Shown: positions 3,560 through 15,540 of the stretch, piece after piece
Numbering within the stretch: position 1 is the first letter of the stretch
How the letters are laid out: each line of letters starts with the position of its first letter
Source of the DNA: Chloroflexota bacterium
GTDB taxonomy: Bacteria; Chloroflexota; Dehalococcoidia; Lucifugimonadales; HRBIN23
Direction: 5' to 3'
Length of the DNA stretch: 49,533 bases
Assembly: GCA_016210325.1 (NCBI GenBank)
Contig: JACQUK010000090.1
Span: 1-49,533 of the forward strand
Position numbers and translations under genes: made by a program
Notes under the pieces: generated by a model
Databases searched by the model: none
The model's input: only the letters and a program-made list of their open reading frames with translations
What the model was told of the DNA's origin: nothing

Positions 3560-4825
3560 TTGACTGTGTCCTCTGCCGGTGCGACCAAACGTATCGCTTT
3601 GACGGGCAACAAGGCCGCGGCCCAGGCCATCAAGATGGCCAAGATTCAGATGCTCTGCTTCTTCCCCATTGGGCCTTCCGATGAGGTGGGTGAAGAGGTA
3701 GCCCGGATGATCGGGCGGGGCGAGCTCAACGCCAAGCTCATAGAGCTCCAGAACGAGCGAAGCGTGATGAACGCCCAGCTTGTGGGGGCCCAGTCAGGGG
3801 TGCGGACCTCCTTCGCCACCAACTCCGAGGGGCTGCTCTACGCGGCCCAGCAGCTTATCTTCGGCTCCTACGCCCGTATCCCCATCGTCATCGTCGTGGC
3901 CCACCGTGCTCTGGAGCCGCCCGCAGTGGTGCGCACCGATGACCAGGACACCATCATGTTCCGGGACATCCACTGGCTGCACTTCCACTGCGAGAACTCG
4001 CAGGAGGTCTTCGACACGGTGCTCCAGGCCTACCGGGTTGCGGAGGACCCCTCGGTGCTGCTGCCGGTCTTTGTCACCTATGACGGGTGGGAGGTGTCCC
4101 ACAACAGCTACCCGGTGGTCCTGCCCTCCCAGGAGGCCGTGGACCGCTTCCTGCCGCCTTTCCAGTTGCCGCCGGAGATTGACTTCATCAAGAACATGGA
4201 CTTTTCGGCCTACTATGGTGGCCCCCGCATGAGCGGCTACGGGTATGTGGACGTGGACCGGGAGTACATGGAGCGGCGCTACCAGATGGACCACGCCCTG
4301 AACCACAGCGCCAAGGAGGTCATCAAGAAGGCCCACCAGGAGTACCAGGGCCTCTTTGGGCGCGGCTACGGTGGTCTCATCGAGACCTACAATCTAGAAG
4401 ACGCCGAGGTGGCTGTCGTCGCCATGGGCTCCCTGGCGGCCACGGCCCGCTTCACCGTCCACCAGCTCCGGGAGCAGGGGAAGAAGGTGGGGCTGGTGAA
4501 GGTACGTGCCTTCCGCCCGTTCCCCAGCGAAGACCTGGCACAGGCCCTGAAACACGTGAAGGCGACTGTAGTGCTGGACCGCAACACCGTGGCGGCGGTG
4601 TACCACGACCTGCGGAGCGCCCTCTTCGGGCAGCCGCAGGCCCCCCTGGTTCTGGGGCGAATCGTGGGCCTGGGTGGGCGCGACGTGACCAGCTACAACA
4701 TCATGTACCTGGTGGAGGAGGCCTACCGTGCCGTGAGGCAGGGCCGTGCGGAGAAGCCCCTGGCCTGGCACTTCGACGTCATTGAGGATGAGGCGATGCT
4801 GCAACAGGCGCTGGCCGCGTCCTGA
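3560..4825 (+). CDS. porA: 2-oxoacid:ferredoxin oxidoreductase alpha subunit
   Basis: ALTGNKAAAQAIK..., PIVIVVAHRAL, TYDGWEVSH motifs; operonic with gamma/delta and beta. Confidence 0.88.
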   Translation: MTVSSAGATKRIALTGNKAAAQAIKMAKIQMLCFFPIGPSDEVGEEVARMIGRGELNAKLIELQNERSVMNAQLVGAQSGVRTSFATNSEGLLYAAQQLIFGSYARIPIVIVVAHRALEPPAVVRTDDQDTIMFRDIHWLHFHCENSQEVFDTVLQAYRVAEDPSVLLPVFVTYDGWEVSHNSYPVVLPSQEAVDRFLPPFQLPPEIDFIKNMDFSAYYGGPRMSGYGYVDVDREYMERRYQMDHALNHSAKEVIKKAHQEYQGLFGRGYGGLIETYNLEDAEVAVVAMGSLAATARFTVHQLREQGKKVGLVKVRAFRPFPSEDLAQALKHVKATVVLDRNTVAAVYHDLRSALFGQPQAPLVLGRIVGLGGRDVTSYNIMYLVEEAYRAVRQGRAEKPLAWHFDVIEDEAMLQQALAAS

Positions 4826-10941: not shown

Positions 10942-12180
10942 ATGATACGTCGCTTGCATGTTCAAAACGTGTTGTCGCTAAAGGATGCTACGATTGACTT
11001 CAGCCGATTTAATATCTTCATCGGCCCCAACGCCTCCGGAAAGACCGCAGTCTTTCGCACGTTTATGCTGCTCGCACAGCTACTTCGCAGACCGCTTCGA
11101 GGCCAATATGGCGACTTTGCGGTGGCGCCCGGGATAGACCTCGACCGGGTTGTGTGGCGCGGGGATGACACGTTGCCGCTGACTGTTGAAGTCTGGTTTC
11201 ATGATACGCCCGAAGGTCCACCCGCGTATGCGCTGGAGATTCGCAAAGTGGCGCAGGGGTGGAGTGTGACAAGAGAAACGTTTCACCTGAGCAATTTTGA
11301 ATTCGATTCTGGGAAGACACCCTTCGAACATCCAACAGAGTTCCGTGGGGTCATCAGGTGGGAACCGCCCTATCTCGGGACTTTGTCTACTCTTGTGTAC
11401 CGGTACCGGCGGGATCGTGCGGCGGCGCAGGTGATAGCGCCCATCCTGGAACCTAGCCAGCGAATTGGTCAGGTCTGGCGGTACCGGGTAGCGGCCGCCA
11501 GGGTCGCCGAAGCAGTTTTGCCACCTGTAGGCGAGTCAGCCCGGGTACCAGGGGCTCGCTTCGCGCCGCAAGAAGGGGAAATCTATGTACGGGAGGACGG
11601 CTGGGGCCTTGTTTACGTTCTTCAGCGACTCCAGGGCGCGGATAGAGACCTGTTTGGCCGTATTGAGAAAGATTTTCTTGAGTGGCACCCGCACATCAAG
11701 ACCGTCAACTTTGAGCCAGTGGGGAGCGGGGTTCGGCTGGCGTTCATCACAACCCGGAGTGCAAAGCTTGTGCCGGCCATGCTGGAGTCCGATGGCGTAT
11801 TGCACACACTGTTCCTGTTGTGGCGTCTCCATACCGCAGAGCCGGGGCTGACAATCTGCTTAGAAGAGCCGGAAAATGGGACACACCCGCACCTGCTAGC
11901 CAAACGGTACGAGTTGCTACGTCGCTTTGCGAAACAGGAAGGTTCAAATGCCTTTCAGCAGGTCCTGGTAGCTACCCACTCCCCCGATCTGCTGGCAGCG
12001 ATCGAGGATACCCACGAAGCACTGGACGCTGTTCGTATTGTGGAGCACAGCTCCGAAGAAGGCACCAAAGTTCACAAGCTTGCGGACTCGCGCCAACTCC
12101 GGCTACTCCTGAAGGCGTTCAAAGGTAACGTTGGGGACCTATGGTGGTCTGGAGCCATTGGGGGTATCCCGCAAGAGTAG
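10942..12180 (+). CDS. AAA family ATPase (AAA_21/SMC-like), probable defence ATPase
   Basis: Walker A GPNASGKT, Walker B LTICLEEPENGTHPHLL, switch THSPDLL; C-terminus GDLWWSGAIGGIPQE. Confidence 0.85.
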   Translation: MIRRLHVQNVLSLKDATIDFSRFNIFIGPNASGKTAVFRTFMLLAQLLRRPLRGQYGDFAVAPGIDLDRVVWRGDDTLPLTVEVWFHDTPEGPPAYALEIRKVAQGWSVTRETFHLSNFEFDSGKTPFEHPTEFRGVIRWEPPYLGTLSTLVYRYRRDRAAAQVIAPILEPSQRIGQVWRYRVAAARVAEAVLPPVGESARVPGARFAPQEGEIYVREDGWGLVYVLQRLQGADRDLFGRIEKDFLEWHPHIKTVNFEPVGSGVRLAFITTRSAKLVPAMLESDGVLHTLFLLWRLHTAEPGLTICLEEPENGTHPHLLAKRYELLRRFAKQEGSNAFQQVLVATHSPDLLAAIEDTHEALDAVRIVEHSSEEGTKVHKLADSRQLRLLLKAFKGNVGDLWWSGAIGGIPQE

Positions 12181-12186
12181 CAGAGG

Positions 12187-12846
12187 GTGCGCAACACAAT
12201 GAACCTTGTTGTTCTCGGCGAGGGCCCTGACGAGATGGGGGCTGACTGGAGTAGACGCCACCCTTTGGTCGAAGTTGCGGAGCATGAACTTGGTGCTCTG
12301 GAGATCCTGGTTCGGAGGGTAATGGCCGAAATTCACAGCACTGCCATCGTGTGTCTTGGTCTACCTCGTCTGCGCCGCGACACGATAGCAACGCCGCCCA
12401 GCACCATGGAGGTGCTCACAAACCTGAACTTGCTGGAGCGCCTTCTCATCGCTGCTTTCCTCGCACCATCTCCAGCCAGGCGTGCGGAAGGCGCTCTGAT
12501 AGTGTGCGACTCGGATCACGGTTGCAAGGTGCAGAGGGTCGTAGGAAAAGTTAGAAGCCGAGTTGCCCTCTACGGGAAAGTGGTTCTTGTCATCGTTCGG
12601 CCAGAGTTCGAGGCCCTGTTGTTGGACAAGGCCGCCGTCGAAAAGGCTACGGGGAGCCGACGTTGCTCGAAGGGCCCATCCCCTGACCCAAGCTGCTTCG
12701 TTCGAGGCGGCCTTAAAGAGGCGTTCCAACAATGGGCTGGCATTAGGGATGCAGCCAAGTATGCAGAAATAGCGCAGCAAGTCAACGTCAAGTCAACTAA
12801 CTTGGCCGTCGCTGACTTCAGGACAACACTCAGGGAACTACTGTGA
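12187..12846 (+). CDS. TOPRIM/DUF4276-like partner of AAA ATPase
   Basis: 6 nt downstream of the ATPase; N-terminal LVVLGEGPDE and central LIVCDSDHGC acidic motifs fit TOPRIM. Confidence 0.55.
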   Translation: MRNTMNLVVLGEGPDEMGADWSRRHPLVEVAEHELGALEILVRRVMAEIHSTAIVCLGLPRLRRDTIATPPSTMEVLTNLNLLERLLIAAFLAPSPARRAEGALIVCDSDHGCKVQRVVGKVRSRVALYGKVVLVIVRPEFEALLLDKAAVEKATGSRRCSKGPSPDPSCFVRGGLKEAFQQWAGIRDAAKYAEIAQQVNVKSTNLAVADFRTTLRELL

Positions 12847-12936: not shown

Positions 12937-12969
12937 TGCCAGGCGTCAAGGGTAGTGGAAATTGAATAC

Positions 12970-12997
12970 TTGACACACCACAAGGGTGTGGTATGAT
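12970..12997 (+). promoter_or_regulatory. Sigma70-like promoter in left TIR (TTGACA 12970-12975, 16-nt spacer, TATGAT 12992-12997)
   Basis: Near-consensus hexamers reading into a non-coding region. Confidence 0.6.
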
Positions 12998-13003
12998 AAA
13001 AGT

Positions 13004-13155
13004 GCCCCCTTGCGGGGGCTGCTCCTATATTATGGTCGCCTGGACTACCATCCAGGCCGCCATAGTGACTGAGAACCTAGCCATCTGGCACTCCTTTCCG
13101 GCGCTGGAGGGTTGATGGCCTGAGAACCTGGAGGCCCTCCAGCGCCTAGCTTTAT
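13004..13155 (+). ncRNA. Candidate structured non-coding RNA inside the IS1595 element
   Basis: Three hairpins (13004-13019; 13033-13062; 12-bp perfect stem 13100-13111/13135-13146, followed by tagctttatt), repeated CTGAGAACCT (13069-13078, 13120-13129), upstream promoter, no plus-strand ORF. Confidence 0.45.
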
Positions 13156-13205
13156 TCCGCACGGGTGCCTCACAACACCCGCTAACGGCCCACTGATCTC
13201 ACCGC

Positions 13206-13952
13206 TCACAGTTTCTGCGATGATTCTTGCCTCTCGTACTTGTTCAGCTTATCAACAAGGTCAAAGACCCATGTTCGGTCGTCACCTTCAAGCTCCCAGA
13301 GGTTCACCGATAGAGAGAGGCTGACAGTTCCGCCACTCCGCAGCGTGATGGTCTTGGGGGGTGAGCCTTGCCCGTGACTTGTGTCACCTTTTCCGGCAAG
13401 GTTCTTGCTGCTGCTATCGTCCGGCAACTCACTTCCAGGGGTGCCCCGCCTTCTCCGAGAGCGTGGTGCGGTCTTGTTCAGCTTCTTGCCGCTGCCCCAG
13501 TGCGGCGACACGTCTAGACCAGTGAACTTCGCAGCAGCGAGGTAGAACCGGATAGCCCTATCCAGCGTGGTTCCGCTGACACTGTAGCCGCGCATGGCTT
13601 CCTGAAGTTGTGCATACGACCCGTTCTGTTTGGCGAGCGCCAAAAGTGCCGAATAGCTGACCTCCAGAATTTCCTTAAGGATAATTTTGAACTGCTCGTC
13701 GTTCCGTTCGGCATGGGCAGCCACTAAACGTTTCAAGACCGACTGAACTGCGCCATCCTTATCAATGAGTCCAAGGAACCTGAACGCGCTGAGAATCTGC
13801 CCCTGTACTGCTCCGCTCTGTGATGGGAACACAGAGCGGTCCAGTTTGACCGGGAGTGCCTGGCCGAGTGTCTCCACGGCGGTGCGGAATGTAGGAAACG
13901 GGATGTACACCGCAGGTGGCCCATGTCGTTCTGTGTCCGTTGTCGTTACCAT
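13206..13952 (-). CDS. DUF5343-like protein (IS passenger)
   Basis: YIPFPTFRTAVETLGQALPVKLDRSVFPSQSGAVQGQILSAFRFLGLIDKDG...SYAQLQEAMRGYSVSGTTLDRAIRFYLAAAKFTGLDVSPH resembles DUF5343; upstream TTGACA-N18-GATAAT. Confidence 0.7.
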   Translation of the reverse strand: MVTTTDTERHGPPAVYIPFPTFRTAVETLGQALPVKLDRSVFPSQSGAVQGQILSAFRFLGLIDKDGAVQSVLKRLVAAHAERNDEQFKIILKEILEVSYSALLALAKQNGSYAQLQEAMRGYSVSGTTLDRAIRFYLAAAKFTGLDVSPHWGSGKKLNKTAPRSRRRRGTPGSELPDDSSSKNLAGKGDTSHGQGSPPKTITLRSGGTVSLSLSVNLWELEGDDRTWVFDLVDKLNKYERQESSQKL

Positions 13953-14014
13953 GTCTCCCCTCCGGTTTGTTCCGTGCAGTAATGCCCTGAGTGATGCCCT
14001 CATGTCTCGTCAAC

Positions 14015-14044
14015 ATTATCCGACATCACTAGGGTCGTTGTCAA
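14015..14044 (-). promoter_or_regulatory. Promoter of DUF5343-like gene
   Basis: Minus strand TTGACA (14044-14039), 18-nt spacer, GATAAT (14020-14015). Confidence 0.5.
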
Positions 14045-14121
14045 CACCGTATTGGCTGTGTCGCAGATGATTTTTGAAATTGCCGGTCGGAACTGCTACT
14101 GTGGGGGCAGGAGGTGGGTCA

Positions 14122-14328
14122 ATGGAAGCTGGCGATATGGTGTGGCTACGGGCCTACGGTGGCGAGAAGATTGCCCGCCGCGTGGTTGAAGTGAAAGGCG
14201 ATGTCGTGGTGGTCTGCCAAGACAATGAATACCAGGCCGCCGCAAAGGAGGGAAGGCCTCCGATCGCTGTGGGATTCAATGTTGAGGATGTACTGGGTGA
14301 GGCCAGTCAGCGTACAATGAAACCATGA
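14122..14328 (+). CDS. Small hypothetical passenger protein
   Basis: MEAGDMVWLRAYGGEKIARRVVEVKGDVVVVCQDNEYQAA...; ATGA overlap with next ORF. Confidence 0.55.
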   Translation: MEAGDMVWLRAYGGEKIARRVVEVKGDVVVVCQDNEYQAAAKEGRPPIAVGFNVEDVLGEASQRTMKP

Positions 14329-14528
14329 CGGCCCAGAAGAGGCAACATAAGAATACGCGGGTCTCGCTAGCGCCACTCACCTTTGAAGAGGCGATAGTGG
14401 CGCTAGCGAAGGCTCCTAAGCGTAAGGGTTCTCAGGCTGAGCCGTCTGGCAGTACCACAGAACCCGCCCCTGAGTCTGCCTCACCAGCGCAGCGAACCGC
14501 TCAGCATCCTGAATCTTCCGACGGTTGA
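14325..14528 (+). CDS. Small hypothetical passenger protein (RVSLAPLTFEEAIVALAKAP motif)
   Basis: ATGA translational coupling; 3' half antisense to the transposase 3' end. Confidence 0.5.
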   Translation: MTAQKRQHKNTRVSLAPLTFEEAIVALAKAPKRKGSQAEPSGSTTEPAPESASPAQRTAQHPESSDG

Positions 14529-15408
14529 AGCGGAACTCGAACTCGTTCAGGTAGCTGGGTAGATAGCCTTCGCTGAGATGGTGGAACACCCCGTAGACGC
14601 CCCGCTTCAGCAAGCTCCAGTAGTTCTCGATGCCCTGAATGTGCACATCCCCGCGCACGTACTCTACTTCGTGGTCAATGACCTCGTGCGGTAGGTAGTG
14701 CTTTATCTGCCGGTAGGCCGGGTGACCATCAGTCATCAGCCGGGCGTTCTTCATGTCAATCATCTTGCCCATGATGGGCCGTAGGACGGGGCCAGTGGCA
14801 GCGGGAACCTTTACGGTCCGCGCCTTACCACCGCGCTCCAGTATCCCGAACACCGTCGGGTTGTCCTGATAGGGGGCCTTCTTGTCCGGTGCTGGCCGTA
14901 GCCCCATCTCGATTTCATCCTGTACCCGCTCGTGCCAGACCTTGTGCCCTCTCCGGGTCCGGGGATGAATGTAGGTTTCGTCCGCTTCAATGGTGCCTGT
15001 CAGAAGCGGAAGCTCGCCCTTGTCCCGCATGGCTTCCCTGATCCGGTGGCACATGAACCAGGCGGACTTGTAGGTAATGTCTAGCTCCCGGTGAAGCTGG
15101 TGGGCGCTCATGCCCTTCTTTGAAGCACACATGAGATATATCGCAGCGAACCACCTGCTCAGGGGGATATGGCTGTCCTCGAAGATGGTCCCGACGGTCG
15201 CTGTGAACTGCTTGTGGCAGGCCCGGCACTTGTAGAGCTTCTGGACGGTGTTCTTGGTCTGAGACTTGCGAGTCATACGGTACGGCTCTGTGGCCCCACA
15301 CTTGGGGCAGCGGGGGCCGTCAGGCCAACGCATGGCCTCTAGGAACTCCCGGCACTGTTCATCCGTCCAGCGAAGGACTTCTTGAAAGGAAACTTGCTGC
15401 GTAGTCAT
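14416..15408 (-). CDS. IS1595 family transposase
   Basis: N-terminal zinc ribbon CPKCGATEPYR...YKCRACHKQFTATVGTIFEDSHIPLSRWFAAIYLMCASKKGMSAHQLHRELDITYKSAWFMCHRIREAM; ISXO2-like catalytic region. Confidence 0.95.
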   Translation of the reverse strand: MTTQQVSFQEVLRWTDEQCREFLEAMRWPDGPRCPKCGATEPYRMTRKSQTKNTVQKLYKCRACHKQFTATVGTIFEDSHIPLSRWFAAIYLMCASKKGMSAHQLHRELDITYKSAWFMCHRIREAMRDKGELPLLTGTIEADETYIHPRTRRGHKVWHERVQDEIEMGLRPAPDKKAPYQDNPTVFGILERGGKARTVKVPAATGPVLRPIMGKMIDMKNARLMTDGHPAYRQIKHYLPHEVIDHEVEYVRGDVHIQGIENYWSLLKRGVYGVFHHLSEGYLPSYLNEFEFRFNRRKIQDAERFAALVRQTQGRVLWYCQTAQPENPYA

Positions 15409-15540
15409 GTGTGCCCTCTCCTATCTGGTACAATAGGATACTAGCACAAATGGCTGGGTGTGTCAAGTATCTAATTGCCAGGGTAGTTGGCACCCCTGCG
15501 GGGCGATTAGTCACGGCCGGTCGCAGTGCCCCGGGCCTTC

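Follow-up and report, generated by a model that had tools for sequence, protein, structure and literature searches.

The element described here probably combines a fixed backbone with an exchangeable cargo slot, in the manner of the transporter insertion sequences (IS) of the IS1595 family. It occupies positions 12957-15479 (2,523 bp) of the window, by which we mean the whole 49,533-nucleotide stretch of DNA that was analysed, and it is present in one copy in its host genome, a fragmented Dehalococcoidia-like MAG (2.29 Mb, 157 contigs). To the backbone would belong the pair of TIRs, each with an inward -35 box, together with the DDE transposase and a microprotein (14325-14528) that is small and basic. 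The cargo slot would hold a DUF5343-type gene and its promoter, an ATGA-coupled 68-aa orphan and a distal structured RNA. The boundaries and backbone features are the following:

12949..12956, no strand: left copy of the 8-bp TSD, AGGGTAGT, read from the sequence
12957..12980, + strand: left (distal) TIR, 24 bp, GGAAATTGAATACTTGACACACCA
12970..12997, + strand: promoter-like site reading inward from the left TIR, TTGACA-16-TATGAT, with extended -10
14325..14528, + strand: putative backbone microprotein, 67 aa, motif SLAPLTFEEAIVALAKAPKR, supported by HMM, relatives and alignments
14416..15408, - strand: IS1595-family DDE transposase, 330 aa, from profile matches
15438..15466, - strand: promoter-like site in the right TIR, directed inward to the transposase, TTGACA-17-TAGTAT
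15456..15479, - strand: right (transposase-side) TIR, 24 bp, GGCAATTAGATACTTGACACACCC
15480..15487, no strand: right copy of the 8-bp TSD, AGGGTAGT, read from the sequence

A sequence-only reading had placed an IS1595-family element with passenger genes at these coordinates, bounded by a perfect 8-bp TSD and by TIRs that match at 20 of 24 positions and share the 14-bp block ATACTTGACACACC. All of these figures proved exact when the sequence was read again, the transposase domains, TIRs and TSD bear out the family assignment, and the share of the unit taken by the transposase, put at about 40%, was measured at 39%. The element has the ~25-bp TIRs and 8-bp TSD by which the IS1595 family is defined and, within its TIRs, the passengers unrelated to transposition (the DUF5343-type gene and the 68-aa orphan) that define a transporter IS. 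Judged by its sequence, the unit is thus a transporter IS, a known kind of element, with predicted mobility. The same reading had suggested comparing the locus with empty sites; the empty site GGCGTCAAGGGTAGTTGGCACC was found in none of 98 related genomes. The insertion adjoins a candidate anti-phage system, an AAA ATPase and a 219-aa partner located upstream (window 10942-12846), a pair that matches PADLOC HEC-01A/HEC-01B (1.1e-31 and 2.5e-7).

The transposase matches PF12762 (1.7e-30) and NF033547 (3.9e-59; IS1595-type, ISXO2-like DDE) and has an N-terminal Zn ribbon (PF12760, 8.5e-17, residues 15-67). Across 20 transposase relatives D143 and D227 are invariant and E261 nearly so; from knowledge of the family, we take these three to be the catalytic residues. 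The closest relatives belong to Chloroflexota/Dehalococcoidia. Most elements have inward TTGACA-like boxes within their TIRs. A -10 box follows the TIR -35 at 42 of the 64 transposase ends, against an expectation of 5.9, and at 19 of the 53 distal ends, against 3.6. The enrichment at transposase ends makes it likely that the transposase is expressed from its own TIR. Distal TIR promoters showed no correlation with gene orientation across elements.

Bacterial genomes contributed 52 loci to our transposase search and viral contigs 80, among which automatic delimitation (a TIR match of at least 15/22 and a perfect 8-bp TSD) yielded 66 elements. When the downstream sequence was shuffled, 0 of 66 loci were delimited, so the delimitation of 66 real relatives is not due to chance. 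These relatives measure 1,778-5,890 bp and all 66 contain non-transposase DNA: since a transposase of ~1 kb never fills an element of 1.8-5.9 kb, passenger DNA is the rule in this clade, and in size the window element is typical of it. This is the comparison with related copies that the first reading had called for, and the cargo differs among them.

In pairwise alignments of close relatives, TIR and transposase are homologous, then nothing is, then the distal TIR is homologous again, and the microprotein is kept while the neighbouring cargo is replaced. In L012/L014, L010/L103 and window/L002 the microprotein gene adjoins the transposase inside the conserved block; in L023/L028, L107/L116/L118/L121 and L091/L117, where it is distant, it constitutes its own conserved block of ~50-80 nt amid unrelated sequence. 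Cargo is, by these comparisons, swapped between elements as cassettes. AIPR/AbiU cargo is found in L008 with a homologue in L103, and these two are not sisters in the transposase tree; GmrSD_N occurs in L012 and L096, RelA_SpoT/PDC-S33 in L014 and L035, a large N6 methylase in L041 and L105, PemK in L002 and L005, and DUF3800 in L013. The PDC-M24A/B pair (PADLOC), which is not cargo of the window element, is carried by L081 (71% identical transposase) and by L116, where PDC-M24B recurs in a pair homologous to that of L102; PDC-M24 cargo thus occurs on different transposase lineages. Further Pfam domains in the cargo set are PIN, HipA-like, NYN, SocA/Panacea and DUF4258, and PIN/VapC cargo is present on two named plasmids. 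The predicted cargo of sister elements often consists of anti-phage or toxin genes, a descriptive statement for which the flanks served as control in the R[ND]xxxH test only. In that test, itself prompted by the data, the motif was found in 19 of 31 right-end genes versus 9 of 199 flank ORFs (p=2e-13). Small proteins with R[ND]xxxH are the right-end genes of L013, L019, L023, L028, L033 and ~14 others, often divergent from the microprotein gene. They are possibly HEPN nucleases outside Pfam: the right-end helical protein has an all-helical model, with no more than a sub-threshold Pfam match. A fold search of this model against PDB gave no significant match, and for this reason we do not claim HEPN identity.

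The sequence-only reading had counted everything outside the transposase as cargo, including both ATGA-coupled small ORFs. The coupling of the second ORF to the 68-aa gene stands (14325-14328), but the claim that all of this DNA is cargo is not supported: ORF 14325-14528, which overlaps the transposase 3' end in antisense, is a clade-wide component of the backbone, kept across changes of cargo. The window ORF matches L002-L005, L039 and L060. An iterated HMM recognized the microprotein in 55 of 67 elements (E<0.02), with two strong matches in 482 kb of flanks as control; L022, L046 and L160 bear a third sequence type, absent from the flanks, which brings the total to ~58 of 67 (L015 is borderline). 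Among the 67 elements, no recognized copy was found in the transposase clade L036, L133, L137, L141, L149, L150, L155 or in L041, which implies that not all IS1595 transposition requires the microprotein. The sister transposase clade comprising L133, L137, L141, L149, L150 and L155 has a TIR-to-transposase leader of ~190-220 bp.

In a genome-wide search of 29 genomes, 24 of 26 microprotein matches lay within ~1.5 kb of an IS1595 transposase, a linkage that is in part by construction because the seed of the first HMM came from loci picked by transposase, although that seed excluded several of the linked genome matches and all plasmid loci. In Chloroflexota, seven of nine matches are beside a transposase and one more is at a contig end. 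Six of seven named-plasmid transposase loci, which were reached by transposase search first, have a microprotein, recorded as a hypothetical protein where it is annotated; a tblastn search of plasmids with the microprotein gave no matches, probably because the query is too short and of low complexity. On the transposase tree, microprotein presence requires 4 changes, versus 9.5 in shuffles. Seven copies show amino-acid constraint (pooled pS 0.58, pN 0.26), and the family is basic, with a median pI of ~10. Three sequence types can be distinguished, ISLxPLxFEEAxxAL..P (window), RRDEVLKRMLxTPPKPH and RFxEAAREL...FxxxLxxIAKxKP, which have in common a short amphipathic stretch, a Pro/Lys end and the basic pI. 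Weak scores hint that the three are homologous, or they may be unrelated tails that look alike. Pfam, NCBIfam and PHROGs returned no family match, and the open-access papers searched describe transporter IS in general, with no mention of this gene. Two loci look like remnants: a truncated transposase running directly into microprotein-like sequence (L039:1422-2000), and a lone microprotein with only the last 23 transposase codons (L183, G022:C57, ~3830-3970).

Could the microprotein serve the cargo rather than the element? It lies directly 3' of same-strand cargo in 19 elements, with a -4 overlap in six, and in these it could be cargo-linked; in many other elements it is divergent from a right-end gene with R[ND]xxxH, a motif enriched in such genes (19/31 vs 9/199). 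Since cargo is often toxin- or abortive-infection-like, the microprotein might be a generic antitoxin or damper, kept for that reason, with coupling or divergence setting the dose of its partner. We consider this unlikely: the microprotein is kept with AbiU, GmrSD, RelA/SpoT, MTase, PIN and DUF3800, which hardly share one antitoxin, it stays when the cargo changes, and the supposed HEPN genes have no fold match. Less likely still is an ordinary transporter IS in which both small ORFs, like all non-transposase genes, are arbitrary passengers. Such elements are established in the IS1595 family (PMC3129680), tISCpe8 and MTnSag1 being examples with passenger genes (PMC5704250), and the cargo slot indeed varies without rule; however, one small ORF is found in nearly the whole clade, as a separate conserved block between unrelated cargo, and clade recurrence, genome-wide linkage and pairwise alignments already contradict this account. 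It is highly improbable that what is conserved is a signal in DNA or RNA (a transposase terminator or an end-like site) with an incidental reading frame: in the window, the sequence that encodes the motif forms a perfect 14-bp inverted repeat (14364-14377/14396-14409) next to the transposase 3' end, but pN is less than half of pS over seven copies, the perfect hairpin is, by eye, not kept in other copies, and the gene is far from the transposase in many elements.

We retain the reading of a fixed backbone with an exchangeable cargo slot. Driven by the promoter that lies in its TIR, the transposase would move the whole unit and generate the 8-bp duplication. The microprotein would serve transposition or the control of the element: acting in trans, it would most likely make contact with the transposase, with the ends or with the target DNA, and so set transposition. 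The cargo, in many cases a defence or toxin module, would pay its way. A role of the microprotein in transposition, proposed from sequence, is tentative.

The cargo slot of the window element contains these features:

13002..13178, - strand (weakly favoured): structured RNA element, from homology to L004:1605-1778:+ and compensatory changes
13004..13019, - strand: terminator-like hairpin GCCCCCGCAAGGGGGC, then ACTTTTAT
13025..13084, - strand: putative 19-aa peptide ORF in the structured RNA, MARFSVTMAAWMVVQATII, with RBS-like GGAAAGGAG upstream
13206..13952, - strand: DUF5343-type cargo gene, from homologues and a fold model
14015..14044, - strand: promoter-like site for the DUF5343-type gene, TTGACA-18-GATAAT
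14122..14328, + strand: 68-aa orphan cargo gene, no convincing homologue

The DUF5343-type gene probably starts at ATG 13952, which is preceded by the RBS GGAGG, and not at 14003, though the ORF is open to there. The first reading had called its product DUF5343-like; this holds only through its relatives, 17 of 18 aligned family members matching PF17278 (best 2e-8), whereas the window protein itself falls below Pfam detection. Homologues occur in 37 of 400 Chloroflexota genomes, its own included; among those in other genomes are single copies outside IS elements, and the 1.5-kb flanks that we fetched contain a transposase fragment in only one case. Residues 28-172 receive a high-confidence fold prediction, and the protein has neither a solved relative nor, for its model, a significant structural match in PDB. 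The cargo of L034/L043, initially taken for the same family, was rejected as it has no similarity to the window protein. The 68-aa ORF is preceded by a good RBS, AGGAGGTG, visible in the sequence. Searches of phages, plasmids, PHROGs, PDB and 400 Chloroflexota genomes yielded no homologue of it that we find convincing.

The region previously described as hairpin-rich is indeed so, with fold z-scores of -4.6 and -3.6 on the two strands. L004 has a copy of the structured RNA at the corresponding position, with a different gene as its neighbour. Between window and L004, 12 of 36 predicted pairs have changed on both sides with pairing kept (on the opposite strand, the model gives 9 of 36), and these compensatory changes support conservation of the structure at 13002-13178. 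The RNA may encode the 19-aa peptide, whose L004 counterpart, MSACPIIEAAWLEIQATSI, shares with it the end AAWxxxQATxI. Rfam gave sub-threshold chance matches only, and a search of 301 Chloroflexota genomes and of viral contigs gave, besides the window, a single weak match. The combination of DUF5343-type gene, 68-aa orphan and structured RNA, suspected of being undescribed, is indeed absent from every other delimited element and may be new; novelty of this kind is nonetheless to be expected, given how freely the clade varies its cargo.

IS with passengers are usually taken for sporadic accidents. In the present case an entire clade seems to be made up of carriers that share a fixed backbone, which includes an unnamed microprotein that public annotation lists as hypothetical. 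It is possible, if short of probable, that this large IS1595 clade, whose members occur in Chloroflexota, Pseudomonadota and elsewhere, forms a mobile platform of two genes, a transposase and a transposition microprotein not described before, and that its standard slot lets elements exchange defence and toxin genes, its members acting as 2-4-kb carriers of immunity cassettes. If the microprotein controls transposition, this would account for the capacity of very small elements to bear cargo, and if the cargo is mainly immunity genes, the elements would be a compact route for the spread of phage defence. Microprotein, transposase and TIR together offer a simple handle with which to search for new defence candidates.

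Within the reach of these analyses, what is new is the second gene conserved across the clade and the standard cargo slot, the window element being ordinary as a transporter IS. It resembles tISCpe8 and MTnSag1 in its IS1595-type DDE transposase with Zn ribbon, its ~25-bp TIRs, its target duplication and its passengers foreign to transposition (PMC5704250, PMC3129680). However, tISCpe8 and MTnSag1 carry lincomycin resistance or mobilisation functions, whereas the clade of the window element carries the microprotein and cargo that is mostly defence- or toxin-like.
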